A stretch of DNA of 64,000 nucleotides, taken from NCBI RefSeq assembly GCF_000189635.1, contig NW_002476434.1, positions 1,240,001 through 1,304,000 on the forward strand, read 5' to 3'. The DNA is from Tetrahymena thermophila SB210. Its lineage: Eukaryota; Ciliophora; Oligohymenophorea; Hymenostomatida; Tetrahymenidae. This document shows, in pieces, positions 7,259 to 64,000 of the stretch. Under the pieces are notes generated by a model that saw only the letters and a list, made by a program, of their open reading frames with translations, ran no database searches and was not told where the DNA came from. The translations under genes were made by a program, and so were the position numbers. Numbering within the stretch: the first letter of the stretch is position 1; each line of letters opens with the position of its first letter.

Positions 7259-8138
7259 AATAATCTTTTTTTTTATTTCTAAATAGAATTTTTTGTAAAT
7301 ATTAATGAGGAAATAGTTTATAAAAAAAAAGATCTACACGAATTTGAATATAAAATTTTTATTACTCGCTTACAGTATGCATCTTTTTTTAAAGGAAAAA
7401 GGAAACTTTTGATTTGTTGCTGATATGAATATTATTTAAAAGCAATTATAGTTTCGTTTTTGTTTTTGGCATCAAAAAAAATAAATGAAAAAGATATATA
7501 TGATAACAAACAATTCTATTTAGATTCTCTTTTTATAACCTTAAGAAAAAAATTGGATTGATAACAAGATGAATTTTAAAAGAATTAACAATATACTCAA
7601 ACATAAAGATGTATTATGCATAAAATAAATTATTAGAATAGAAACGTAATGCAATTATACTTTTCATGAATTTTGTAACATAGAATTAAAGGAGTTATAA
7701 TAAGTGATTTATTATAGAAATAAAAATAAGAAGTAAAAAATTAATAAATAAATATTCGGTGAAACCTAGAGATTGAAAAGAGTTTTGATTTTATAGTTGG
7801 TCTGTTTAATTCTGAAATCAATGAAAACACAAACCAATTTATGAGGAATTCTGATAGAATATAAAAATTTATCATCATATATTATATGAAATTTATTGAA
7901 ATAAAGCAAAGAATTATTTTCTGATTACTTTAAAAAAGTAATATTTACCAAAAAAAAAAAAGATCAATCAAATTAATCAAAAAACAATTCATAAAATCAA
8001 ATTTTAAGAAAAAAAGTCACATTAAAATAGGTAAAAATTACATCATTTGAACGAATATTTTAAAAACTAGTACCTATTAAGTTATTAAAATATATTTTTT
8101 TTTAACAGCAAAAGTAATTAAAAAAAGTCAAAGCAACT

Positions 8139-9665
8139 ATGTTCCTATCAAGATTTACTAATTCATCTAAAATGCTTCACTGCATCTCAAGAATGAACTC
8201 CTCAACTTTCAAAATTCTTAATGACATTCCCAAAGATAATACTGTTCCTTAATTTACTGTTGGTCGCAAAAATGGTTTCCTTCCTTGGGGTGCTCCTTTA
8301 GCTCGTCTTCCTGAACCATTCTAAATCATAGATGAAATCCTTGACGAAGCTCCCTACTACAAACGTGACGGAACTCCAGGTAAATTAGCTACTGGTAGCT
8401 TTGGAGAGTACGTCAGAGAAAAGCTTCCTCTCCTCGATGTTTCTAACATTAAGGATTCAGCTCTTTTATTTGCTCTTTATCGTGACTACACTTTCTTGAC
8501 TAGTTAATATATCCTTGAACCTTGCCATCTTCATTATATCGCTACTAAATCCAAAGACTATGGACTTGGTCGTAGTAGACTTCCAGCAAATATTGCTATT
8601 CCCCTTGTTAGTTTAGCTAAATAACTTGGAGCCAAGCCCTTCATGGAATACACTTGTTATGCTACTTATAACTGGTAGAAGATTGATCCTACAGGTAACT
8701 GCGATGCTCAAAATATCAAACTTGTTCGTCATTTAGAAGGTTCATAGCACGAAACTGGGTTTGTTGCAGTACACATTGCCATGGTCCAACACTCTGGCGA
8801 ACTTGTATCAAATGTTTAAGACGTTCTTGACGCTGTTGAAAAGAGAGACAGAGAAGAATTTGACATCTGTCTTAAGAAGATGTTGACAACCACCAAAATT
8901 ATTAATGTTAAGATGGATACTATGTGGGAGTATTCTTCACCAAAAGCTTATAATAACTTCCGTACCTACATCATGGGCACAAAAAGTTAACCTATGTTCC
9001 CTAATGGTGTTGTCTATGAAGGTGTTTCTGAAGAACCAACCTTTTATCGTGGAGAAAGTGGTGCAAATGATTCTATAGTTCCTACTATTGATAACCTCCT
9101 AGAACTTACTGATACTATGCCTGATAATCCCTTCACTGCTATCTTAAAGGATTTCCGTACATACCGTCCAGTAAATCACAATGCTTATTTGAGCTATGTT
9201 GAAGAAAAAGCCAAATCAATTGGTGTCCGTGCATTCGCCACCTAGGATTCTAACTCTACTGTTCTTTACTAGGCACTTCTTGATTAAGTATCTGAATTCA
9301 GAGAAAGACATTGGAGATTCACAAAGAATTATATATTAAAGTACTCCAAACACCCTCGTGCCACTGGTGGCTCTCCCATCATTACCTGGCTACCAAACTA
9401 ATTAGCAACAGTTATGCAAGCCATAGTTAATATCTAAAATTTCATAAAAGAAGACGAATTAAGCCACGAAAATAAGCAATTATATGTAGAACTTACCAAA
9501 AAAGCAGATACTTAATTACGTATCTTAAGGAGAGAAGTAGAAGAACTTAAAAAGGATTATCCTGGATAAGACATTGACTTCTAAGAAGTCGAAGGATACA
9601 AACCTAAAAAAGTAGAAACCTAATCAGCAGCTACTTTTGGATAAGCAAAACCAGCAGTAGCTTGA
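8139..9665 (+). CDS. IDO: Indoleamine 2,3-dioxygenase, copy A
   Basis: Heme dioxygenase of 508 residues, single exon, expected to oxidise L-tryptophan with O2 to N-formylkynurenine, the first step of the kynurenine pathway. Family landmarks appear in order: SFGEYVRE, SRLPANIAIPLVSLAKQLG, FMEYTCYATYNW, VVYEGVSEEPTFYRG followed by a GANDS loop, DFRTYRPVNHNAYL, ERHWRFTKNYIL and RATGGSPIITWLPNQL. The histidine in PVNHNAYL (His347) aligns with the proximal heme ligand of animal IDO (His346). The last 70 residues or so are charged and probably helical, beyond the usual IDO end. A tandem paralogue of identical length starts at 13908. Having no introns is unlike most neighbours. The N-terminus (MFLSRFTNSSK...) might be a weak mitochondrial presequence; I cannot decide. 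IDO versus TDO: the motifs are IDO. Confidence 0.92.
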
Positions 9666-9919
9666 TTATCAATATCATCTATATTTATTAAATTTTGTAT
9701 ATTTTATTAGTATTTAGTATTATTAAAATTCTAAAGTCAGCTTTTAATCAATCAATTAATTATTAATTAAGTAAAATTTACATTCAAAAGATTTGCCATT
9801 TGATTTTTTTGTTTTCTTTAAACAATTTTTTTTAATTACATAAAAATTCAATAATTTCAACAAAAAAAAATTGATTTCCATAAAGAGAGAAGGTTAAGTT
9901 TTTGGTTCCATTTCCTAAA

Positions 9920-10570
9920 AAATAAAATTAAAAAGATTTTAGAATCTGTATTATAAAATAATTATATTTTTAAAAATCAGAATATTTTTTTTAAAATTAA
10001 TATGAGTTTATGAGTTAATTAATTAAATATTTTTAAAAAAAATAGTTGATTCCTGGAAAAATTTAATATGATTTTTATAGGTTAAATAAATAAAATTATA
10101 CTAAAATTATTTAAAATTAATTATTAATTTAAAAAAAGAAAATTATAGATTTTACAATCTTTATTAGAAAATTAATATATTTTTAAAAACCAGAAAATCA
10201 TTTTTAAAAATTTAAATGAAAGAATGAATTAATTAATTAAATATTTAAAAAAAAATAGTTGATTCCTGGAAAAATTTGATAATATTTTTTTAAAAAGGTT
10301 AAATAAATAAAAATTATTCTAAAAAGACTTAAAATTTATTATTAATTTAAAAAAAGAAAATTCACAAGATTTTACAACCTGTATTAGAAATTATTATATT
10401 ATTAAAATCAGAATATCATTTTTAAAAATTAAAATGAAAGAATGAATTTATGAATTAATTAAATATTTAAAAAAAAGTAGTTGATTTATGGAAAAATTTA
10501 ATATGATTTTTATAAGTTAAATAAAAGAATTATTATAAAATTTAAAATTAATTATTAATTTAAAAAAGAA
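9920..10570. repeat. Tandem repeat, about 3 copies of 213-222 bp
   Basis: The anchor ttgattcctggaaaaattt recurs at 10046, 10259 and, as ttgatttatggaaaaattt, at 10481, giving periods of 213 and 222. Each unit also carries an 'agattttacaat/ctgtattag' block, a 'cagaatatcattttt' block and a 'gaatgaatta' block in the same order. The copies are clearly diverged, so the array is not recent. Non-coding. Confidence 0.8.
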
Positions 10571-10779
10571 AATTCAATAAACTATCCAATTAATTGTTGA
10601 GTTAATATTTTTAAATAATATTCTTTATAGTAGAAATAAGGTAAATGAAATAATCTAACTGTAAAGTTAATAAATTAAAGAAGTTATAATAATACAAATT
10701 TTTTATAATTTTTTCTTTAATGAGTATTTAAAATTTTTTAATTTATATGTATTTATGATTAATTAAAATTTAAAAAAGG

Positions 10780-13290: not shown

Positions 13291-13907
13291 AATACTGCAC
13301 CATTAAATACAATTTATCAAGCTAACTAAAATAATAGGAATATAAAGAAAAACTAAGCTAAGAAAAATTTTATTTAAAAGCAAAGTATGTTGGTAAACAT
13401 AACTAGATATCTCAATTAAAAAAAATAATAAAAGAATTTAATTTTCTGATACCAACGCCTAGAAATAAAATTTATGTTATTCAATTAAATTACCACTTTT
13501 AGAAAGTTAAGCAATTAATATAATAGATTCCACAAATCACTGACTGATTGATATTTATAGTACCTTCAACTTTATAATGGTAATTTTTTTTATATCAAAT
13601 ACAATTTATGCAAATTTGAAATTTTTATTTTTTATTTACTGACAATAAGATATTAAATACAAAATTAGGTGTTTTTATTTTTCAATTTTTACACAATAAA
13701 ACTTATACTCTCTTTATATTATTATAAGGAGGGTATTTTAAATGGTTAAAAATTGTATAATTTTTTATAAATTTCCTAATACTTGCGTTACTTATTTATT
13801 TTTTAAAAAATTAATTGAAAAAACACCCCTCCTCTATTTTTAAAACAGAAACAATTGTACAAAGTATTTTTTTTAATAGAAAATAAAAATCAAAAATTTA
13901 AAAAGAT

Positions 13908-15434
13908 ATGTTCCTTTCTAGATATACAAATTCATCTAAAATGCTTCACTGCATCTCAAGGATGAATTCTTCAACTTTCAAAATCCTTAATGATATTCCA
14001 ACTGATAACACTGTTCCTCAATTCACTGTTGGTCGCAAAAATGGTTTCCTTCCTTGGGGTACTCCTCTGGCACGCCTCCCTGAACCCTTCAAAATTATAG
14101 ACCAAATTCTTGACGAAGCTCCCTATTACAAACGTGATGGTACTCCAGGCTTGTTAGCTACTGGTAGCTTTGGAGAATATGTGAGAGAAAATCTACCTCT
14201 CCTTGATGTTTCCAACATTAAGGACTCAGCTCTTTTATTTGCTCTTTATCGTGATTATACTTTTTTGACCAGTTAATATCTCCTTGAGCCTTGTCATCTT
14301 CACTATCTTGCAACTAAATCCAAAGACTATGGCCTTGGTCGTAGTAGACTCCCAGCAAATATCTCTGTCCCCCTTGTTAGTTTAGCTAAATAGCTTGATG
14401 CAAAGCCTTTCATGGAATACTCTTGTTATGCCACTTTTAACTGGGAGAAGATTGATCCTACAAGTAACTTAGATCCTTAAAATATCAGACTTATTCGCCA
14501 TTTAGAAGGTTCATAGCACGAAACTGGGTTTGCTGCTGTTCATATTGCTATGGTCTAACATTCTGGCGAACTTGTATCAAATGTTTAAGATATTCTTGAC
14601 TCAGTTGAAAAAAAAGACAGAGAAGAATTTGATATTTGCCTTAAAAAGATGTTGGAAACCACCAAAATTATCAATGTTAAGATGGACACTATGTGGGAAT
14701 ACTCTTCACCAAAAGCATTTAATAATTTCCGTTCCTATATGATGGGCATAAAGAGCTAACCAATGTTCCCTAAAGGTGTTGTTTACGAAGGTGTTTCCAA
14801 AGAACCAACATTTTATCGTGGAGTAAGTGCTGCTAATGATTCTATAATCCCTACTATCGATAATCTCTTAGAGCTTACTAATAATCTACCTGATAACAGT
14901 TTCACTGATATGTTAAGGGATTTTCGTACCTATCGCCCAGTAAATCACAATGCCTATTTGAGCTATGTTGAGGAAAAAGCTAAATCGATTGGTGTCCATG
15001 CGTTTGCCACCTTGGATTCTAACTCCACTGTTCTCTACTAGGCCCTTCTTGATCAAGTATCTGAATTCAGAGAAAGACATTGGAGATTCACAAAGAATTA
15101 TATATTAAAGCACTCCAAGCATCCTCGCGCTACTGGCGGCACTCCCATCATTACATGGCTTCCAAATTAATTAGCAACAGTTATGTAATCTATAGTTAAT
15201 ATTCAAAGCTTTATAAAAGAAGACAAATTAAGCCACGAAAACAAGCAATTATATGTAGAACTTACCAAAAAGGCAAATACTTAGTTGCGTATATTAAATA
15301 GAGAAGTAGAAGAACTTAAAAAAGAATATCATGGATAAGACATGGACTTCTAAGAAGTCGAAGGATAAATGTCTAAAATAGCACAAAGCTAATCAGAAAC
15401 TACTTATGGATAAGCAAAATCAGCAGTGGCTTGA
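13908..15434 (+). CDS. IDO: Indoleamine 2,3-dioxygenase, copy B
   Basis: Second 508-residue IDO, collinear with copy A without any length change and differing at scattered positions, mostly conservative ones. All landmarks are kept: SFGEYVRE, SRLPANISVPLVSLAKQL, FMEYSCYATFNW, VVYEGVSKEPTFYRG, DFRTYRPVNHNAYL with the heme-ligand histidine at 347, HWRFTKNYIL and RATGGTPIITWLPNQL. The loop after FYRG reads VSAANDS instead of ESGANDS; in the family this stretch lies by the substrate pocket, so a change in affinity is possible. The extra C-terminal helical tail is also present but more diverged near its end. No introns and no in-frame TGA; both copies look functional. It is probably also a tryptophan-degrading enzyme of the kynurenine pathway. 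Confidence 0.92.
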
Positions 15435-17076: not shown

Positions 17077-20000
17077 TCAAGATAAACTATTTGGGACAGT
17101 TTATATTTTGGTATTCTTATATGACTCATCTAGGTCAGGGTTATTCTAAAAAGTATTGATATTATTTTTTATTTTTGTCTATGTCTATTTAGGTTATTGT
17201 TAAAAGCTATTTTCTGTACCTTCTTCTTATTACCAGTCAAACTCAGCACAGTCTTCTTAAAAATCTTGCTAATAATATTAATTTAATTTTGATGCAGATC
17301 TATTGTTACTCATGTTATCATCATATCCTGATAAATTATTTTTGCTTTCATTATTTTTTTGGCTTTTTGTTCCTATTAAAATCGTTTGACCTTTTCCTGA
17401 TCCATTAGTTTAAATGCTTGCATTAAGGAACTACTCTCTTGTAAAGCCTAATATTCCACCAGCCGAGTTAGTGTGTTTTACTAATGGGCGATCATAGTAG
17501 TTGCTACCGCCTTTTAAATTCATTATGCTTGCTCTGAATTCCTATTCATCGTAAACATCAGTAGATTAGTTGAAGTAGATTCCATTACTGAATTGAGGAC
17601 GCAAACTGTTATTTTCACTACCCTCTGAATCAATTAATTAGTTTGTTTCGTAGGAGCAAGAATAAATAATTTTAGGAATGCTGTCTCCATAGTCTTCATC
17701 ATTATATTGACTAGTATGGTATTCATATTCGTTATGATTTTCGCTAAGATTATCTTCACTTTAATTATTTTAATTGTTTCCTGCATTTTAATTATTATTA
17801 CTTAAATCACTATTTTTAAATCCTTTACTCATTATACTATTATTTTGCTCACTTTTTTTCAATTGTTGGACAGTGTTCTTATTTAACCCCTTTACTTATT
17901 TCTTGGTAAGTGCACTTTTAATAAGAGATTAGCTACTAGAATTATCATGGGCTGTTTCTTGCATACTTTAGTTAAATTAAGCCTTTTTTTTAGGCTTTCC
18001 ATTAAACTTATTACTTCCTTCAAAATCAAACTTGTAATTGTAACTTCCTAAGTCTTCATTACTAGAAGGACTTTAAGATTTAAAGTTACTTTTTTAATTA
18101 GCGGATAATATATCGTCAATATCTCTTATAAGTTGCTTTAGTGATTTATCAGTAGTTACTATACTATCAGCTTCGAACTGTAAATTACCACTGCTTCTGA
18201 TCCTTCCTTTTTTTTCACTTAAGCAATCATAAAACTCTTGGAATAAAGTTTTTCTGTTTTGCTGAGAGGCTACAGATTTTTCACAATTTTCGATTAACTA
18301 AGAAACTCCTTTGATTTTACTTGTATGCATTATATGCACTAGAATACTCTTGATCTTGTTCATGAATATTTAATTTTAAACATCTGAACTTTCGTATAAT
18401 AATTTTGTATAATACTCTACAACTTCTTCCTTGCTTACCTAAAGTTTTCATTAAAATTTATTAATAACTTTTCAGGATTATTTAAAATTTTTAAGAAAAA
18501 TAAATATTTTTTTAATTCAAGATAAAAAAAATAAATTGAATTAATAAAATTCTTAATTTTTAAAATTTACTTGGGCAATATCTCCAAGAAAAACGAGAGC
18601 AAGGTTGAATTTTCTGTCAATATGCATTAGTTCGATTTCAACAGCGAATTTTTTATATGGACTTTAAATAAATTTTAAAACTAAATATTTTTTACAAAGC
18701 GAATAAATTGTTTTACTAATTAGCTTGCTCTAATACTTGAGGGAGCTGTTGGATATCACAACTTTTTTAAAGTATGATTACAACACTGTCTGAAATTTTA
18801 AATGAGAGTTTAAGAGCTTCTACGAGATTTGGCTATACTTCTGTAAGTAGGTTAATTGAATTATCAATACCTTAGGAAGAAGAAATTGAGTTATCAAATT
18901 TTTTGTAGTCAGGATGAAGAACTACTGTATCCGCTTTCAACTTTTTCATTTGAAGGAAATCAGATTAAATTACTTCAACTTTATGCTGTTATTTGAATGA
19001 TTCAATATTGTATTTAGCATGGCTTACTTTAACCTAATTGCAATCAATAGCAATCACTTAGCTAGCTTCTTTAGCAAACTTTTTTTATAAAATTATAATT
19101 TTATTCCAATTTTTTTGTAATGCTGCAAATAAATAAAAAAATAAATAAGCCAATAATAAATATTAATCTTCTCATAAAATAATTTTTTTTTCTTTCTAGC
19201 TTATATAAGATAATAAAATTAATTTTGAAAAGTCAATATAAAAGCTTACTTAGACTGTATTGTAACCTACTCCACAAAAGGCGTCTACAACAATTTGATT
19301 TTTTAATCTAGATGAAAGATATTAGCAAATCGGCTCAGGAATTGCATTAAATTAGCTGTCAAAATCACTTTTGAAATTTCTGTTGTAAAAGTAACTATTT
19401 GGATCAGTAGAAACTACTCCTTTTTAGCAGATACTTTGCTTGCTGGGGTTTTGATTTACCTGAGAATTCAAGAATGAGTTACTCTAGAAATTCTTTTCCA
19501 AGGTTTTGACTAATAAATAGCTTTCTTTCTTTTTACAATACAGATGGAAAAGATCAGTTTATTGCTGCTTGTATTATTACAAAAACGCTTTTATATTGTA
19601 CTTAGCTTTCTTAACTGAGTTTTTGAGATTATTTTTGCTTTACAAAGAATGGTTTAAATCTGCATTTAATGCTTGGCTGCTCTAATCGAAATTCAAATAA
19701 GTATCATGCTCATTTGTATATGATTACTCTGTGGATTTTTTATGAGATTATATTTTTAACGTATTTTTACTCATAGCATTTTACTATGGATTAGGGGTAT
19801 TATACTCATTTATGTTCTAATTTTAAGACTTTTGGTAATTTTATTATTAATTATTTGTGGAATTACTTGAACTGCTGCTATTATTTTCTTCCCCTTACTC
19901 TTTTATCACGCGGCTGTTATGAGAAGAAGATTGCATATCTCTCTTTCTTTCTTTTTGTGGAGAGTTTTTAGCTTTACTTTATTAAGCGTAACCTTAACTT

Positions 20001-20434
20001 GTATAGATTTCGCTATTTGGCTATGAAATATTACTCATACAAGGAATTGTTGTTGTATTATTTACATCCTAACTATTTTGCTAAAAATAATTAGGTTCTT
20101 ATTAACCTTAATGATGATGTTATTCTTCATCAGTTTCTACATCGTCTCCTCCGCCAAAACAACAGCAAAATACTTATTTTTTTTTTCTTGGTTAAGACTA
20201 CTACTTTTCTTGATGATGTTATTCTTCATCAGTTTCTACATCGTCTCCTCCGCCAAAACAACAGCAAAATACTTATTTTTTTTTTCTTGGTTAAGACTAC
20301 TACTTTTCTTGATGATGTTATTCTTCATCAGTTTCTACATCGTCTCCTCCGCCAAAACAACAGCAAAATACTTATTTTTTTTTTCTTGGTTAAGACTACT
20401 ACTTTTCTTATTTATTAAGCAACGACTATTCCAT
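17077..20434 (-). CDS. TGS1-like RNA cap methyltransferase with triple-repeat N-terminus
   Basis: Protein of 1006 residues. Exons, minus strand: 20434-19250, 19078-18696, 18661-18571, 18438-17077. Residues 10-108 are three 33-residue modules with a basic RKKK, CysCysCys, GGGDD and acidic run, encoded by 99-bp DNA repeats. Residues 350-553 resemble the trimethylguanosine synthase fold: FNAIPEPICQYLSSRL, VVDAFCGVGYNTVQ (SAM motif I, 382-395), VIAIDCNQVKVSHAKYN, VEVIQSDFL and a C-terminal VEIELMHIDRKFNLALVFLGD. In known TGS1 the next motif is SPPWGG, which holds the m7G cap; here it is LHPDYKKFDN (449-458). Residues 554-1006 are disordered, rich in N/S/Q. TGS1 makes the 2,2,7-trimethylguanosine cap of snRNA and snoRNA; whether this one does is doubtful. 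The second intron is only 34 nt. The start at 20434 was chosen because the frame stays open through the repeats to that ATG; Met at 20038 is an alternative start without them. Confidence 0.8.
20112..20408 (-). repeat. Three tandem 99-bp in-frame coding repeats
   Basis: The words tgatgatgttattcttcatc and cgccaaaacaacagcaaaat recur at exact 99-base spacing (20112, 20211, 20310) with no visible difference between units. On the minus strand each encodes a 33-residue module of the methyltransferase N-terminus. Because 99 is divisible by 3, other frames also stay open, so plus-strand open frames here are artefacts. Confidence 0.9.
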
Positions 20435-29459: not shown

Positions 29460-32400
29460 ATGAGTAGAATTCTTGAAATTTTAGCTCCTGCTATCAATCT
29501 TATTCCTGAAGTCGAAAAGCCTATCAAGAAGGTATGCACAAGTTCCTTTTAAAAAGCATGCTTCCTCATCTCTCCTATAAATGCCTGCCTATTTTCATAT
29601 CCCCTCACCTTCACACAAAAACAACATTTTTGCATTTTACATCCTTTTCATGCATGAAAACGATCAAGATCTTAAAAAGTTAAATTCCTTTTGATCGAGA
29701 TGCAATTTTTTCTGTCATGAAGAGCATAAAGAAAAGCAGGTCATTGCTAGGTTTATCTTATAGGAAATTAGAGATGAGAGAAGATTAATCAAAGCTCTAC
29801 ATTCTATTATTTGCAAACTCTTACAGCATATGAAGAAAGCATAATAGAATAACGAGATTACAAAACAAAACAAAAAATATATATATACTAATTCTTATTT
29901 ATAAATAACATTAGATCCTCCCCTTCAGAAGTAGAGCTATGTGGACTGCTATTGTCATTTTGATCTATTTAGTTGCCAGTCAAATCCCCTTGTTTGGTGT
30001 TGTCAGCAATGCTGGTGCTGATCCTTTCTACTGGTTGAGAGTTATCTTGGCTTCTAACAGAGGTACCATCATGGAATTGGGTATTTCTCCCACAGTTACT
30101 GCTGGTATGGTTATGTAATTACTTGTTGGTGCTCAAATCCTTAACATCGATCAAAACGATCCCGTCCAAAGATCCCTTTACGAAGGTTCCCAAAAGCGTA
30201 ATAAATTTAAATAATTTAATATATTTTATTTCTTATTAATGAGCCTATCTATCCAGAAATACTTACTTACTATCTACCTAACTACACTACTTAACATTCA
30301 ATCAAGTATATAATTTAAATGTCTACTCTCTCCCTATAGTATCTCAGTTTGTTAATATTAAACATGCTTTAAATCCACTACACAGACAAACAATTTATTT
30401 TGATTTTTTTTGTAGCAAGTATCCTAGAAAATAATAAACAAACTTTTCAAACAAACAGCGATTTAGGAAAACATTTAAAGAATTACATACAAGATTTTAT
30501 AATTTTTAGCATTAGCATAGCAAGCAGAAAGCGTATTTGACAGATAAGAAAAAGAATAAGCTTTCAGCCATCAAAAATATTTAGGATAAATACAAAAAAT
30601 TGTTTTTGATGAAAGCAAGAGACAGTGTATTAATTGAGGAGACAAAGAGAGAGAAAGAGACAACAATTAAAAATTGTTAAGATAGTTTACTTGATGAAAA
30701 AGAAGATATAATTAAGTATCTTATTTGATAAGACACGCGCACCAAAATTTCAATAAAGAATAAATAACTAGATAAATAAATTAATAAACCACTTAATATT
30801 AAATTTTAAAGAGAGTTTTTAATTAAGGTCCATCAATTAATTGAAAGATACTTTTTTGAACAATAGCACAATTATATCTAATAATTCTAATTCTCGCACA
30901 CTCAATAATCCTTTTTGATCAACAAAATATAAATAACAACTTTTTGATAATTCGCAAACATTTTTTGAATAATAATGTGTCAATCATTACTTCTATCTAC
31001 CAACATAGATAGTTCATTAATTAAATGATTCATTCATTGAATTTTAATCAATAAACAATCATTCAAAAATTTCAATAAAATTAATTAAAAACACACATTC
31101 ATTTTTATTTATTTATTTATCTTTCATTTTAAAAAAATTAGTTTTGGGTTTAATTATCGCCTTCTTTGAAGCTGTCGCTTACGTCTGGTCTGGTATGTAC
31201 GGTGACATTGAAAAGGTTGGTTACGGTAACGCTTTATTAATTGTCCTCCAATTAACTTTCGCTGGTATTATCGTTATCCTTTTAGATGACTTACTCTCCA
31301 AGGGTCACGGTTTGGGTAACTCTGCCATCTCCGTCTTCATCGCTATTAACATTTGCGAAACCATCATCTGGAAATCTTTCTCCCCCATCACCTACCCTAT
31401 CCCTGGTTTCGAAAAGGAATAATACGAAGGTGCTATCTTGAATCTTTTCCACAGCTTGTTTGCCATTGACAACAAGTTTGTTGCTTTACAAAACGCTTTC
31501 TACAGATCTCACCTCCCCAACTTGGCTAGTTTGATTTCAACTGCTCTTATTTTTATTGTTGTCGTCTACTTCCAAGGTTTCAAGGTTGATATCGCCCTCA
31601 AGAACGACAGAGTCAGAGGTGCCATCTAATCTTATCCCATCAAGCTTTTCTACACCTCTAACATGCCCATCATCCTCCAAAGTGCCCTTATTTCTAACCT
31701 TTACTTCTTCTCTCAAATTCTTTACAGAAACTTCAACGGTAACTTCATCGTTGGTCTTTTGGGTAAATGGAGTATTCCTGAAGCTGGTGGTTCTCACATG
31801 GTCCCTGTTGGTGGTCTTGTCTACTACTTATCTCCTCCCCACGGTATGATTGAAGTTATTTCTGATCCCCTCCACACCATCCTCTACGTTGTATTCATCC
31901 TCACCACTTGCGCTCTTTTCTCTAAGACTTGGATCCAAGTTTCTGGTTCTTCAGTCAAGGATGTTGCTAAGCAACTTAAGGAACAAGGTATGGGTCTTGT
32001 TGGATCTAGAGACTCTGGTCTTAAGAGCCACTTAAAGAGATATATTCCTATTGCTGCCACTTTCGGTGGTTTGTGCATTGGTGCCCTCTCTGTTGTCGCT
32101 GATTTCATTGGTGTCATCGGTTCTGGTAATTATTTACTCAATCAATCAATAAATATATCATTTTAAATTTTCTTTTACCATTCTGGCTAATCTTAAAGAT
32201 TATATATATCCATTAGGCTCTCAACTACAAAATTTTCTTATCAAATAATTTTGATCAAAGCCAGTGGATAAAGCATCTCAGATGGTTTTTTATTCTTTTC
32301 TCTATATGAGATTGCGAATTATACGCCCATCTTACAACTAACTATTAAAATCGAACTAAAATTTTCATTGATTTTTATTTAAAAATTTTAAAGAATTTTT

Positions 32401-32547
32401 GTATTTTTGAACATCAATAAAAAATAATTTAATTAATTATTTATTTATTTAAATAAAGGTACTGGTATCTTATTAGCTGTTAATATTGTTTATGGTTACT
32501 TCGAACAATTCAAGAGAGAAAAGGAACAAGGTACCTTAACTTTCTGA
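29460..32547 (+). CDS. SEC61A: SEC61 alpha, ER translocon channel subunit
   Basis: 475 residues, matching the usual 476 of the family. Exons: 29460-29531, 29915-30197, 31142-32125, 32459-32547. It is the pore-forming multi-pass subunit of the ER protein-conducting channel, partner of SEC61 beta/gamma and the ribosome. Conserved stretches: [20 protein letters not shown] at the N-terminus, [19 protein letters not shown] (TM1), the plug region, [89 protein letters not shown] and [12 protein letters not shown]. Codon use is biased (CAA, CTC, ATC, GGT, AAG; very few TAA/TAG glutamines), as expected for a highly expressed gene and unlike its neighbours. The second intron, 944 nt, is the longest in the window. 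Confidence 0.97.
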
Positions 32548-55779: not shown

Positions 55780-57121
55780 AAAACCTGAATTTATATTTTA
55801 AAATATTTTAGTAATAATTATAAATAAAAAGATTATTCTTAGCTATAAAAGAATAAAAGTAACTCAACTCTAGCACATTTTAGCAATAAACTGATAAAAG
55901 GAAAAGCATTTAATAATAAATAATTTTATAAAAGCCTTAAAATAATTTACCCTGCTTTATTTTAAGATAGTCTCAACAAAATTGCTCTAATCATACAAAT
56001 TAATTTCATTTTTATTCATTATATAAAATTGTTAAATAATTAAACTAAACAATGTAAATCTCTATTATTTATATCACCTTGTTGAGTATCTTAAATATTT
56101 CATTTTATCACCTAATTAAATCTTTTTAATATAATTATTTACAGAATCCAATTTCAAATTAGTCAAAATTTTCTCAAAAAAAATTAATTTACTTTTTATC
56201 AAAAAAGAAACAAAAAAACCTAGATTATTTATTTTTATTAAATTATTAAAATTTTAAACTTTTAAAATTCAGTTTTATAATAAGCCAAAAAAAATAAATA
56301 AATTATATTTCATTATCATGTAGTTATACATTTTATCTAAAAGCATAAAATTGTTTAATAAAGCAACAAAAAAACATAGATTTTTTATTTTTATTGAAAT
56401 TTTAAGCTTTTAAAATTAAGTTTTATAATAAGCCAAAATAAAAAAATAAATATATTTCATTATTGTGGTTATTGATTTTATCTAATATTATGAGTAGAAA
56501 AATTGCTTAATAAAGCAACAAAAAAACCTAAATTATTTATTTTTATTGAAATATAAAACTTTTAAAATTCAGTTTTATAATAAACCAAAAAAAAAAAAAA
56601 AATTATACTTCATTATTATGTAGTTATTGATTTTATCTAATATAGTTAAATTGTTTAATAAAGCAACAAAAAAACTAAGATTATAAATTTTTATTGAAAT
56701 TTAAAACTTTTAAAATTCAGTTTTTTTATAAGCCAAAATAAAAAAATAAATTAATTTTAATTATTGTGGCTATTGATTTTATCTAATATTTTAAGTAGTA
56801 AAATTGTTTGTTTGCACAAAAAGTGGTTAAGTGGAAATTAAATTATAGTAAATTTTAGATTTTTTAAAAATTGTAAGAAAATAAATGGTTGCTATGACTA
56901 CTCTCTTAACAAAATTTTTTGCTTAAATTTTATATTTAATTTACTTTGAAAAAAAAATGAGTGAATTAGGATAGTAATTTTTTTTTTTGAATATATTTTT
57001 ATTGCTTGTTAATTACCTTAATTAATTTTATATAATTTTTTGAATACTATTAGTATATTAGGAAAATAATTATTTTTTTATTTATTTATTACATTTATTT
57101 TTGATTAGTTTTATTACTATA
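55780..57121. other. 1.3-kb convergent spacer with a ~150-bp tandem repeat
   Basis: Between the 3' ends of RPF2 and the NACHT-WD40 gene. The middle (56195-56820) is a tandem array; the flanks are A+T-rich with nothing recognised. Confidence 0.6.
56195..56820. repeat. Tandem repeat, about 4 copies of ~150 bp
   Basis: The word aaagcaacaaaaaaac recurs at 56360, 56512 and 56660, with a variant at about 56205. It is followed each time by 'attatttatttttattgaaat', 'acttttaaaattcagttttataataagccaaa' and a 'gtagttattgattttatctaa' block. Periods are about 148-152. The copies differ by substitutions and small indels. Confidence 0.8.
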
Positions 57122-60100
57122 TCAGATCTAATATAAAATATTATCTCTTTCTATATATTTTTAAAAATCCCATACTTTGCACATGCTTGCTTTGAATCCT
57201 AATGCTAGAAATTTGTAGTCTTTAGTTATGTCCATACAGGTTATTTCTTTTTCATGCACTTTGCACTCTGATACTTATTTAAAATTTTGATATGGATCTA
57301 AAATTACTAGACCTTTATCTGCATCTACCAAGATTAAGTATTTGTCAGTGAAAGTAGCAATTTTTGATTTAAATTAAAATTCTAATTCAATCTTATCATA
57401 GTTTTAAAATAGATCCCATAAATATATACTTTTAGCACAAACTGCTATCAGATACTATCCATTTGGACTTATGGCTATTTAACCTAAATTATCTTCTGAG
57501 ATAAGCACTCTCATTAAGAATTTTGTTTCGAAAGAATAAACACCTACAAGCCCACTAGATGTAGCTACTGCAAATAAATTATTTTGGCTTTATACAGCTA
57601 TTGATTTCACTTATTTATAAAACTACTGCTGATAAATAGACTCGAAATCTTTAGTTATATCAAAAATGTTTAGCTGCCCATTTTAAGTACCTGTAATTAA
57701 GTAGTGGTCTTAATGACTAAATAAGGCAGTGATTATACTATCACCATCAAATTAAATTTCTTTTATTTTTTCAAAATTATTATTTAAATCTAAAATTATG
57801 CATTTTTATTTCCCATAAAGGGCAATGTATCTATTATTCTGAGAAAATTGCACTTCTGTCTCTCTAGAATCTAACTTTATTTCAATCAATAGCTTAAAAT
57901 TCTTTTATAAATTCCAAATAGAATATTTATATTCTGAAGTGCAAGTTATCAAATATTTGCAGTCTTTGCTAAATGCTAAAGAAGTAAGGCGATCTGCTAT
58001 TATTGGTAAGTTAGTGATGTGGAAGTCCAAATTAAAATTTAGAATTTTGATTTTGTTAATATTGACTTCACATAAATATTTGGTGTCTTAGCTATAATAA
58101 TATTATTATACAATTGTTAGTCCATCTTCTAAATCTTTGTTATTTAAATTACTGTAATTTGAATCTGGATAAGTGATTATATGTTGTAGTTTATTATCTA
58201 TCATTTCCCAAACACACATATAATAATCTTTTTCATACATTAATCTATTTAAACGAACATCAAATGTAAACAAGAACATCGAATTCTCCTAAATAGACTC
58301 AACCATTGACAAGTTATTTGAAAAGTCAAAAACGTTGATTTTGTATTTATCTTAGCTAAGAAAGCTTTCCTATTCCACTGTGAATAAGTATTTAAAGTCC
58401 TGACTAATTTTAAAGCAGCGGGTTTTTGCTGAAATTTACTTTTTGATAACATTTTTAAATCTGTCATTTAAATCCCAACACTTTATTTCTTACTCATGCA
58501 GGGTGACTAAATAGTTATTTTTGAGACATATATCCATTTGCAAAGCATTCAAATCAATAGCATAATATAATTTAAAGTTTGAGCGAATAGAATAAATATT
58601 AATTGCTGCCTGTTCACATATGATTAGTTATTATAAGTTGCTATTAAATTTTATGTCTATAATTTGATTACAAGGAATTGTGGCCTTGCATTAGAAATAT
58701 TTTCCAACATCCCACACTTTACAGATATTTGTTTACTCTTTAGTTTGTAGTGAAGTAGCAAAGTACTTATCGTCCTAACTAAAAAGAGCTTGTTCTAAAA
58801 TTTATTCTCTTACTTCAACCTCTTTGATGTATTTAAATCCATAGGTAATTTCATAAATTTAATAGTTATTATTTGAAAGAGTGACGAAATACTTTAACTA
58901 ATTACTAAATATTGCTTTGAGAATATTAGAAGCTTTGTTCTGTACTAAGAGTGGGATGTTGCTTTTTAAATTATCAACAATAAATAAATCACCTTTTTTA
59001 ATTATTATTTTGTTATCTTTGAAGAATTCTATTGATTTGATATAATCATATGATCCTACGCATTTAAAATCATTATGAATATCAAGGAAAATGTCTTAGT
59101 GCTTTTATCCCCATCTATTAAATATTTTTAATTGCAAAAATTTACTATCGTAGCTGAACTTTGGATACCATCTAAATAAATATGTTATTACAAATCTTTT
59201 GATCAAATTACATTTAATATCAAAGAGTGAAAGATATCTCTCATCATTTTTATAATTCTTTTAGTAGAGTATAAAGTATTTCTCATCAAAACTAAACTAA
59301 ACAAACTTAGAGCGCAAGAATTCTTTTATTTGAATGAAATTTTGTCCATCAAGTAGGTAAGTGCTATTATCTTTTTATGTAATTGCAACAAAGTTACACT
59401 GAGAGCTAAAAACTGCAGATTCAAACTACTGAGGCCATTCCTAAACTTTATAGATTTAGAATTTTTGCCTGATATCCCAAATATTAATTTTATATCCTTT
59501 TGAATTGATTGTCAGCAAATAAGGATTTCCAAAACTTAAAATACTTATGTTGTCTATATAAATCTTATTTTAATTGCTTTTCTTTTACATGTCTTAAGTG
59601 CTGTAATCATCGTCTTATGCATTCAAAAGTATAAATTTTTTTTCTTTAATGCTCCAAATATCACCTTTTTTTGTAATGTAATACTTGTTACACTGAGTGA
59701 ACCCTGATTATATTTTATATTTTTCTTTTTTTTAGTAATAATTACCCTCAAATGACTAAATTAGACTGAATTTTTTTGTATATTTCCATATTTGCAATTG
59801 TTATTAATTATAAAATGCAAAATAGCTACAATCAATAGAGAATTCAAAGTCATCAACTTCCATATGATTGAATTTGTAGTACTGTGAATCAACAATACTA
59901 CCGATAGTTTTTCTTATCTTTGCATTTTTAGTGTCTATTAAGCTGTCAATTATCAAGGCATATTTTAAGTGGCAATTACTAAAATTAATTGTGCTTTTGT
60001 TAGATTAAAATAAATAAGCATAAGGAAATTTACAATCAGATAAATCTAAATTGTCGAAAGCAAAATTATTTTAAAATAAAGCAGAAAGCAAATTAGAAGA

Positions 60101-63100
60101 ACCAATATTCAAGCTTGAGTAAAACCTAGTCATAAAAATATATTCTAAATAGAATACAATTGCTTGGCGCTGGTGTTTGTATGTGTATTTGTTAATATTT
60201 TCTGATATGATTGAGTTTAAAATATGACTTAGTTTGATTAATATTTCGGGCTCAGATTAATTCTAAATATTAATCATGATAAGTCTTTGATTGATATTAA
60301 ACTGTTATAGATCTTCTTCGCTTAAAGAGCTTAATCTAATTCCTTTTTTTTCATAATTAATGAAATCATTAATCATCGCTCTAGCTACAAAATATTCATA
60401 AATTGACTTATGTTTAAACTCAAGCTGTTAATTAACATATTTCTAAGAGTTAGATGAGCCGATTCTGCTACTTTGATTAATCAGAATGTTAATTATCTAA
60501 TTATTTATATAATTTTGTATTCTTTTGATTAATATTTATTGATCTTCTTCTTCTTTCAAACTATTTTTAAGGTCTTCAGAAATTATAACAGGTATGTCTT
60601 TCTAATTAACAACTAAAAATTAAGTAACTTGGCCTTTTTACAAGAACATTTTCATCGCTACACTTTAGAAGTAATCGAAATATTATTCCAAAATAAGATT
60701 TTATATAGAAATAAGTTCAGTTTTCTGATAAGTGTTTGTGTTCATCAATATTTCAACCATATTTTAGGCCTCTCTCTTAAAGTACTACTTAAAAAATAGC
60801 TAATATAGAGAAACTTAATCAAAATACTTTATTTGATTAATTTAATCTTAATCGATTTCATGTATAATCCTTGTAAGTAGGTAGAGATTTATTGGTAGTT
60901 TCACTATGTTATAGATGTTTCCTTAATCTAATATATTGAAAAGTGCTTCTTAGACATTAGCAAGATGATCCTCTAACTCTTTAGTGCCTTACTCTTTAAC
61001 TTAATCTTTTTAAGACTTTTTCGTTTTATTGAAAAAATGCTTTGTAGTGTCTTTATCAGGAGTGGGCATAAGTGATTATCTGTATTTTTCAATGTAGTTT
61101 TAGCAATATATTTGAATGTCATCGTCATTAAAAGGCAATAAATCTAATATACAAAAAGAAGCTTCAGGGTTATTATTTTTTTCTTTGACTTGAACAAATT
61201 AAACTATGCTATGCTCATCTAACTTTTCTTTCCTTGAAGTTAGAATAACTTTTGTGTTGTTCCATTCACTTAAATTCAAATCCTTGTAGATATTGAAGTT
61301 GTCTCCAGTGTACTCATCATAGCCGTCTAAGAGAATAACTTTCTGCCTTTTGGAAGATTTTTTTATAGCAATTATGTCAAAATTACTGATAGAATACTCA
61401 TCTGAAGAAAGAACTGCCTCTATTGTTGGATATTTTTAATTTAATTGATTGCATTTTATGAAAATAGGGAAATAAAGTTGAGATGAATCATGAGTTAAAT
61501 CTATTTGTATTTTTTTTAGCAGCATCGATTTTCCGCTACCACCTTCTGCAAGAATTACCAAAACAACACAATCAGATTGTTTTAAAAAATTATCTCTAAT
61601 CAATTTGATTGTTGTTGTGTTTTGTTAATCTTATATTTTATTTGTTTTAAAGAAATTTTTGATCTTGTCCACAGTTGTTATCTTCGTCTCATTACCAGGT
61701 GTCGAAATTTCTAATTACTCCTCATCTCCTTACTCCTTTGAAAATATGTTATTACCCTTTAAATATTTAAATCTCTGATTGATGTACATATCCTAGACAT
61801 CATGCAAAAGGTCATCTTTGAGCTCTAATCCTTCGACCTTTCTCTCTGAAACAAACTTATCCCACAAATTAATTAACTTTTCCACACATTTTTATTCGAA
61901 TTCCATAAAAGAAACATTGAATTTCTATTAAAGTTTTTCAATGTTTTTCTACTTTTCCAAGTAGTCAGACATAAAACAGCAAAAATTATTACCTGCAAAC
62001 TCAAATATGGTCTGCAACTCTAATCTTCTTGTCGTGATAAAGATATAACAAATATGCTACCAGAGATTCTGGAGAAGGATATTTGAATAATCTTCTAAGT
62101 AAACTATCTCCATCATGTCATCTATCTTCTTAGCTGAAAATATCTTGAAGAACTTTACCATAATACTTGTTATTATGTAAACTATTCTAAGCTTGTAGAC
62201 TTCGCTGTCAATAATAAACATTTTAATTTCATTGAATTCCGTATCAAACAAATCACAAATGTACTCAATAAATTTTATTACTAATTTATTCGACAAATTG
62301 AATTATTCGTTTTGACAGTTTTACTAAAACTAAACCAAAAAAAATTTTTGGTGGTTTTATAAGAAATTGAGTGTTAAGAGGTAATCTATCTTATTTAAAA
62401 CATACATCAAAGACATTTCATTGTGATCTTTGATATATTTTAAATTCCATTCTTAGTTAACTATCAGTGAAATGTAGAATAAGATCTCGTGGGAATCAAA
62501 ACCTTCATAGCACTGTCCAAAACATTTTGATAAGTGTTACCCATAAATGTTCTCACACTCTTGAGTATTCTTTGTTTTAGTGAAGTTTTAAATTTTAAAT
62601 ATTTCTATGTAGAGTAGAGCATTAAATATCCCTTGAGAAGAGAAAGCATCCATCTTTTTATAGACAAAGTTGATAATATTCACTAACTCTAAAGCAGCAT
62701 CAGCTATATTTATTTTAAATCCGTAGTATCCTAGCTTTAAAAGGTTCGAAGTTAAGGTTATTGCTTCAGTCAAACCATCGTATTTCTCATAATATATTTC
62801 CAAATTCACCTCCTAAATCTTTATCATGAGAGAAATGTAGAATAAGATATCTTAAACTGGGTATTTTGCTGAAAGATCAAGACAAATTCTTTCAAATTTT
62901 CTCAGTTTTTCTATCTACTTATTGATATCTTTTTTATTTGAGTAAATTTCATAATCGGAAAGTCTTAGAAGACAATCGAGGTACTTCTCAAACAAATCTA
63001 TAAAATAGAGCTTGTTTCCAACAAAATTTAAGCGATCTCCAGTCAACAACTTGATGTAGATGTCACAAAATAATATCTTTTCAATTTTTAACTGATACTT

Positions 63101-63637
63101 TCTGACATTGCTTTGCTGCAATTTTTTAACTTTTTATTCCTATTGTATTAACTCTCCTTACTTCTACTCTTTTTTAAGCTACTTCATTCTATATATCTCT
63201 GCTTAAAGCTGCTATGTCCCTTGCTGCAACTCCATTTACTAAAACTATAAGACCTCTTAATAGTCAGCAATTAAGTTATCGTTTTCATTTTATTCTACAT
63301 AATCTAATTCATTTTTAGAAAGAGTTTATAGCTTTTCATTGATCTTTTATGTATTAATTTTTGTATTTCCGCTACCACCTCCTCTGAGAAAAATATTTTA
63401 TTGAAACTGCTATATTCTAAACGCATAGTAATTTTCAAATAAATATTTTTTCAATAAGCTTTTACTGAATTGTCCTGATCTAAAAATCTTCGCTATATGA
63501 TGTTTTTTTGTGAAATTAATTTCTGATTTTGTTGAAGTTTTTTAGTTTAAAAAGAGAATTGTAATATTGCCTGCATCATCTATTTTAAACTCTATAGACT
63601 TGCCTTTTGCTAGCTATATTTCAATCTTTTAATTCAT
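57122..63637 (-). CDS. NACHT-WD40 STAND NTPase, NLR-like, single exon
   Basis: 2171 residues in one uninterrupted frame. Order: residues 1-150, a Q/N/K-rich start with a coiled coil; about 170-690, helical repeats in which ILFYISL occurs twice in similar surroundings; NACHT domain from about 690 with P-loop AEGGSGKSMLL (GGSGKS at 699-704) and Walker B VILLDGYDEY (LLDGYDE at 769-775; the DGxDE form is the NACHT hallmark), then WNNTKVILTSR, a sensor-1-like segment. Roughly residues 1180-2171 form one or more beta-propellers, with blade ends such as CKVWD, IKCWD, YSIWNL, LNIFD and IYLWD. STAND proteins of this design (HET-E, NLRs, bacterial Avs-like proteins) oligomerise on ligand binding by the sensor repeats; here the effector would be the unrecognised N-terminus. 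What it senses is unknown. No introns, unlike most neighbours. The start is the first ATG after an upstream in-frame TGA. Confidence 0.9.
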
Positions 63638-64000
63638 AAATGTTCGCTATTAGCACCCCTTTAAGATTTTGTTTGAGAGCTTTAATGTTGATGCAAAATA
63701 GTACACTATTTTAAAAAACAAATATACAAAATTGAACTAATTTATGCAAACAATTTATTATTATATATGAATGTATGATTTATACTTTTTGATGATAGAT
63801 CAATTAAATAAATAAAAAATTACTGTATCTATAGATTGCTTAAATTACTTTAGTAATAAACTTTCATACAAAACAATATGATCGTACTTCTATAATAGCA
63901 CCACTTTATTTATTACAATATTTAAAAATTAGAATAAAATTTTAATGATTTAAAATATTAGAATTCTAATCGTAAATCTTAGAATAAAAAGATTGCTTAT
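63638..64000. other. Upstream region of the NACHT-WD40 gene
   Basis: A+T-rich, with an in-frame TGA on the minus strand before the gene start and no other feature seen. It should hold the promoter of the minus-strand gene. Confidence 0.5.

Follow-up and report, generated by a model that had tools for sequence, protein, structure and literature searches.

The DNA analysed here, a stretch of 64,000 nucleotides from Tetrahymena thermophila SB210 (contig NW_002476434.1; hereafter the window), has a G+C content of 23%, and the ciliate code leaves its long frames open. The gene under study runs on the minus strand from an ATG at 20434 to a stop at 18638, and with one inferred 171-nt intron it encodes a predicted protein of 541 residues that joins a triple N-terminal repeat to a TGS1-like methyltransferase domain (Table 1). 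Its reading frame is open under the ciliate code and broken under the standard code.

Several other features were recorded in the window. Two plus-strand frames (7890-9665 and 13620-15434) match indoleamine 2,3-dioxygenase (PF01231, E = 2.9e-51 and 8.2e-51) and appear to be a tandem duplication, and a single minus-strand frame of 2,225 codons (57122-63799) combines a NACHT match (E = 2.9e-7) with C-terminal WD40 repeats, an NLR-like layout in a ciliate. TRF reported two tandem arrays longer than the focal one, at 9917-10574 (218-bp unit, 3.1 copies) and 56243-56789 (148-bp unit, 3.7 copies). The one Rfam match above the gathering score in the window is the H/ACA snoRNA TtnuHACA17 (32222-32339, plus strand), which is full length, scores 146.4 bits and shows a few differences from the model consensus. 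It lies inside a TGA-free frame on the same strand (30919-32547) that encodes a SecY/Sec61 protein; since it falls beyond the SecY-matching part, it is probably located in an intron or at the 3' end of the SecY/Sec61 gene.

Table 1. Features of the focal gene, with positions counted from the first letter of the window
Feature	Position	Strand	Basis
Exon 1: start codon 20434-20432, modules, linker, first part of the TGS1-like domain to NTVQ	19250-20434	-	Reading frame
Module 1, QEKQQSQPRKKKQVFCCCFGGGDDVETDEEQHH	20312-20410	-	TRF and period identity
Module 2, peptide identical to module 1	20213-20311	-	TRF and period identity
Module 3, peptide identical to module 1	20114-20212	-	TRF and period identity
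Motif I (SAM site), DAFCGVGYN; human DAFCGVGGN	19259-19285	-	Alignment; motif name as in PMC3278928
Inferred intron, 171 nt, phase 0, GTAAGC...AAAAAAAG	19079-19249	-	Sequence
Motif IV position, HPDYKK where human has SPPWGG	18899-18916	-	Alignment
Exon 2: remaining TGS1-like domain, stop TGA 18640-18638	18638-19078	-	Reading frame and homology

The repeat array and the start of the methyltransferase domain share one exon, in which they are connected by a long, low-complexity linker rich in Gln, Ser and Asn. The coding frame of exon 1 contains 0 TGA in 395 codons, with 7.6 expected from base composition (P ~ 0.0005, with the repeats entering three times), and the other two minus-strand frames over the same exon contain 5 and 14 TGA. 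Reading on from the nearest upstream in-frame TGA, the first ATG is the one at 20434, which shares its frame with the modules and has an A at -3, whereas the downstream Met at codon 133 (20038) has a T at this position. We placed the intron at 19249-19079 because the frame beyond it picks up the homology precisely at the NTIQ-FA of human TGS1; in the C214 paralogue described below, an intron of 89 nt is predicted at this very position, between NTVQ and F. Both the splicing and the start codons used here are what we infer for this gene.

TRF identified a 99-bp unit in 3.0 copies at 20112-20409 (100% matches, score 596), and the identity at period 99 covers exactly these 298 bp without a difference. 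Divided into whole codons, the units show a single base difference, the first codon being TAA in the N-terminal unit and CAA in the other two; as both codons specify Gln, the 33-residue peptides of the three units are identical. The array begins at residue 9 of the protein, and each module carries RKKKQVFCCCFGGGDDVETDEEQHH. Translation with code 6 places RKKK (preceded by Pro, hence PRKKK), FCCCF, GGGDD and DEEQHH in the modules, and each 33-residue unit contains three Cys, all adjacent, seven acidic residues and two His. As the unit length is divisible by three, one more minus-strand frame and two plus-strand frames also stay open across the whole array; the coding frame was chosen by downstream homology and TGA counts. 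Since the 298 bp show no difference, the units are best explained if a single, older module was recently multiplied in tandem and in frame. The original prediction had described three such 99-bp units in frame with a TGS1-like domain and had proposed recent expansion or ongoing homogenisation; the units and their frame were confirmed and recent expansion is supported, the two parts belonging to the same predicted gene, whose one inferred intron falls inside the TGS1-like domain.

The array was found once in the 101-Mb, 445-contig assembly, and a protein query with the 33-residue unit matched the three units only. Likewise, a strict DNA pattern (three basic codons, xx, Phe-Cys-Cys-Cys) had three matches, all in the array and none elsewhere in the 101-Mb assembly (0 for the reversed control), so the exact module sequence is specific to the window gene. 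A known Pfam domain was also considered for the module and rejected: 10 families matched the in-frame N-terminal stretch at E <= 1, none of them above its cut-off, the best reached E = 0.015 (14.7 bits against a cut-off of 25), and 0 families were found at E <= 0.01.

The C-terminal third of the protein matches human TGS1. Residues 351-512 of the spliced protein matched the human TGS1/PIMT structures 3egi (E = 1.1e-21) and 3gdh (E = 1.6e-21), about 160 residues of a C-terminal class I methyltransferase domain being alignable, and the spliced domain scored 54.5 bits against PF09445 (cut-off 22), the best of the 15 families listed. The unspliced 171-residue frame, comprising exon 2 and a little of the intron, still scored 29.2 bits against the same cut-off of 22. 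Common to TGS1 and the window protein are motif I (DAFCGVG.NT.QFA) and motif II (VIAID); in the window protein, motif I reads VVDAFCGVGYN, with one Gly of the human sequence changed to Tyr, and the post-I acidic residue is kept, VIAID being aligned to human VIAID. As described in the motif account of PMC3278928, human TGS1 has VVVDAFCGVGGN as motif I and VVFLSPPWGGPDYA as motif IV, and its Trp766 stacks on m7G with Ser671 of motif X on the other side. Unlike the human enzyme, the window protein carries the triple basic-Cys3-acidic module at its N-terminus, has HPDYKK for SPPWGG (the motif IV segment reads VVLHPDYKKFDNS) and has Asn for Ser671. The programs align HPDY under SPPW, and PDY can alternatively be placed under a later human PDY with a gap; SPPWGG is missing under either alignment. 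The Tyr of HPDY could replace the cap-stacking Trp, which would leave activity possible.

Two paralogues were found in the assembly, one at C214:811498 with the exon 2 frame as query (E = 1.3e-5) and one at C270:473353 in a PF09445 search. PF09445 was the best Pfam family for the spliced domains of both C214 (54.3 bits) and C270 (47.7 bits; cut-off 22), and they matched human TGS1 with 2.6e-15 and 5e-18, respectively. In each of them motif IV is replaced, by INPQIDM in C214 and by IAPHLLS, across an inferred intron, in C270; the motif is therefore missing in 3/3 family members found, one Pro staying in place. The residue aligned with human Ser671 is Asn in C214, as in the window protein, and Phe in C270, whose motif I is degraded (DVSCAVGQF).

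Two segments of human TGS1 searched against the assembly matched the window gene, C214 and C270 and nothing else, and for the 113-residue C-terminal segment the window gene was the sole match (E = 2.0e-9). The pattern CGxGGNT was found in the assembly at C214 only, and PPWGGP and PPWGG had 0 exact DNA matches in the 101 Mb. No canonical TGS1 was found in the assembly by a search that ignores introns and scores the best first-look candidates only; the assembly Pfam search missed the window gene and C214, so the absence of a canonical TGS1 is not proven by it. Two further candidates were rejected. At C300:178037, PF09445 was above its cut-off (24 bits in the assembly search), but general methyltransferase families fit far better, the ORF scoring best with Methyltransf_31 (50.5 bits) and PF09445 coming seventh of 11 (25.4 bits). 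C114:182403 scored 15.2 bits, below the PF09445 cut-off, and was not retained, its long frame looking by eye like low-complexity sequence rich in Thr and Ser. Among viral and prokaryote contigs, 8 and 97 pattern matches, respectively, were obtained for relatives of exon 2, none of which was confirmed by tblastn.

Clustered cysteines beside basic residues near the terminus were found in 3/3 family members. With starts inferred as the first in-frame ATG after a TGA, the N-terminus of C214 is MFNCCLKNNQKHDDDDNGNKKKDKR and that of C270 is MIIENGELSSPLMNANEQKNNQQQKQRKKSLFQKIFGCCLERT, with EDDD further on; Cys-Cys lies at residue 24 in the window protein, 4 in C214 and 38 in C270. We then compared this layout with a background of 83 coding-like ORFs (38,354 residues, 70-residue windows) from 200 kb of the same genome and the 64-kb window, the focal gene excluded. 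Cys-Cys with [KR]3 within 20 and [DE]3 within 30 residues occurred in 3/3 family members and in 0/83 background ORFs, the criterion having been chosen after the three sequences had been seen and the background consisting of ORF pieces, not true N-termini. Distances of 30 and 45 likewise gave 0/83, as did a tighter first criterion (16 before, 18 after) applied to the background alone, which would miss C214 by one residue. For comparison, plain Cys-Cys occurred in 587 of 33,374 60-residue windows (1.8%) and in 10 of the 83 ORFs, and CCC in none of the 83. The layout varies among the members: in C214 the basic run (KKKDKR, with no Pro) comes after the cysteines, not before them, and neither paralogue N-terminus keeps the His pair or the Gly run of the modules. 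Given that the strict module form is absent elsewhere, the three N-termini are alike in plan and not in alignable sequence. The difference between 3/3 family members and 0/83 background ORFs makes the module plan look like a family feature and the triplication private to the window gene, and the plan appears to be older than the triplication.

These comparisons bear on two other views of the repeats. The first is that they are neutral, produced by replication slippage in a functionless, disordered tail, or in part an assembly artefact. The units are identical at all synonymous sites but one and the N-terminal part is Gln-rich and low-complexity, both of which speak for it; however, a single occurrence of the array turned up in the assembly, and the module plan is the very part common to both paralogues and absent from the background ORFs, and we consider this view quite unlikely. 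In the second, Cys3, His2 and acidic residues of the modules would coordinate metal, and multimerisation would depend on it. CCC clusters occur in ciliate metallothioneins, and three Cys, seven acidic residues and two His per unit would suit such a role, but the paralogue N-termini have no His pair, three adjacent Phe-flanked Cys generally make a poor chelating geometry for one site, and Cys, at 9% of the unit, is far below the level of metallothionein; metal binding is thus very unlikely. Metallothionein itself was rejected as a model for the module, since its very high cysteine content is spread over the whole protein and the module has three adjacent Cys in 33 residues. The three members have in common the Cys-Cys and its neighbouring basic and acidic runs, whereas neither the His pair nor the Gly run is shared, and this favours lipid attachment over metal. 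Of the three roles put forward in the original prediction, membrane tethering is accordingly the best.

Our preferred reading, at roughly even odds (probability about 0.5), is that the gene encodes a membrane-associated, S-acylated protein whose non-canonical TGS1-type methyltransferase fold probably no longer hypermethylates caps. The N-terminus would be drawn to acidic lipid by the basic cluster, a DHHC transferase would S-acylate the Cys-Cys(-Cys), and the membrane would hold the protein with its domain on a flexible tether. This domain may still bind SAM, probably makes no trimethylguanosine caps, and would work either as a scaffolding pseudo-enzyme or on a different substrate. The triplication would raise the number of potentially acylated cysteines from 3 to 9, and attachment should be firmer. 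We infer acylation, membrane site, SAM binding and loss of activity from sequence.

Parts of this arrangement have counterparts in known proteins. The GAP-43-type N-terminus has Cys-Cys and then basic residues, and the start of C214 (MFNCCLK...KKKDKR) resembles it, a likeness of layout. Short terminal cysteine clusters are also found in another group of alveolate proteins, the apicomplexan alveolins (IMC1a and kin), and in Plasmodium alveolins they are predicted to be palmitoylated, a prediction that palmitome data back for two of them (PMC5223771). Alveolins are a different protein, and they have single and double Cys where the window modules have three adjacent; according to that paper, such terminal motifs had not been identified in ciliate alveolins (PMC5223771). 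Titles and abstract beginnings in open PMC (Tetrahymena, Paramecium, Toxoplasma, ciliates) did not describe a membrane-bound TGS1, and the open PMC literature yielded nothing on trimethylguanosine synthase with the inner membrane complex, or with cilia and the basal body.

The basic cluster can also be read differently. PRKKK matches the consensus of a nuclear import signal and fits such a signal equally well as membrane contact; it might alternatively serve nuclear import when the protein is not acylated. Taken further, the three copies could be import signals of a working divergent cap hypermethylase or a nuclear RNA-binding factor, the cysteines being secondary or an acyl toggle between membrane and nucleus as in PLSCR1, a possibility that we regard as somewhat unlikely. 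P. falciparum TGS1 offers a precedent in its classical nuclear signal bound by importin alpha, which sits elsewhere in the protein than the PRKKK of the window protein (PMC9695642). In PLSCR1, palmitoylation of CCCPCC controls nuclear location (PMC9158361), an example of how an import signal may be combined with a cysteine cluster to make a switch. The window protein shares a cysteine cluster with PLSCR1, but the two are unrelated, and in the former a basic cluster immediately precedes the cysteines within a repeated unit. The sole match of the C-terminal human TGS1 segment to the window gene, and a Tyr of HPDY that might stand for Trp, also argue for a nuclear enzyme. On the other hand, none of the three family members found has motif IV, the N-terminal Cys-Cys is kept in the paralogues, and the basic stretch of C214 has no Pro. 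With the cap-holding residues missing in the window protein and both relatives, the picture of a cap methyltransferase is weakened, and the nuclear RNA-modifying enzyme of the original prediction was not supported.

The window protein belongs to a known fold family and has an unusual N-terminal part. TGS1 is regarded as a conserved nuclear enzyme, and Tetrahymena snRNAs presumably carry trimethylguanosine caps. It is possible, although we think it unlikely, that in this Tetrahymena lineage every detectable member of the TGS1 family has given up cap hypermethylation, the three members being acyl-anchored, cap-blind membrane proteins with a methyltransferase fold (e.g., of the cell cortex), with an unrelated enzyme completing the snRNA caps or the caps lacking trimethylation, and the number of anchor copies tuning the membrane hold. 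If the only detectable TGS1-like genes of a genome all lack the cap motif and have an anchor-like N-terminus, either ciliates would make trimethylguanosine caps otherwise, or the cap pocket would have been rebuilt. Such a genome would also offer an unambiguous example of an RNA-modification fold taken into service at a membrane, and both the cap-synthesis and the membrane questions are testable in a genetically tractable ciliate.
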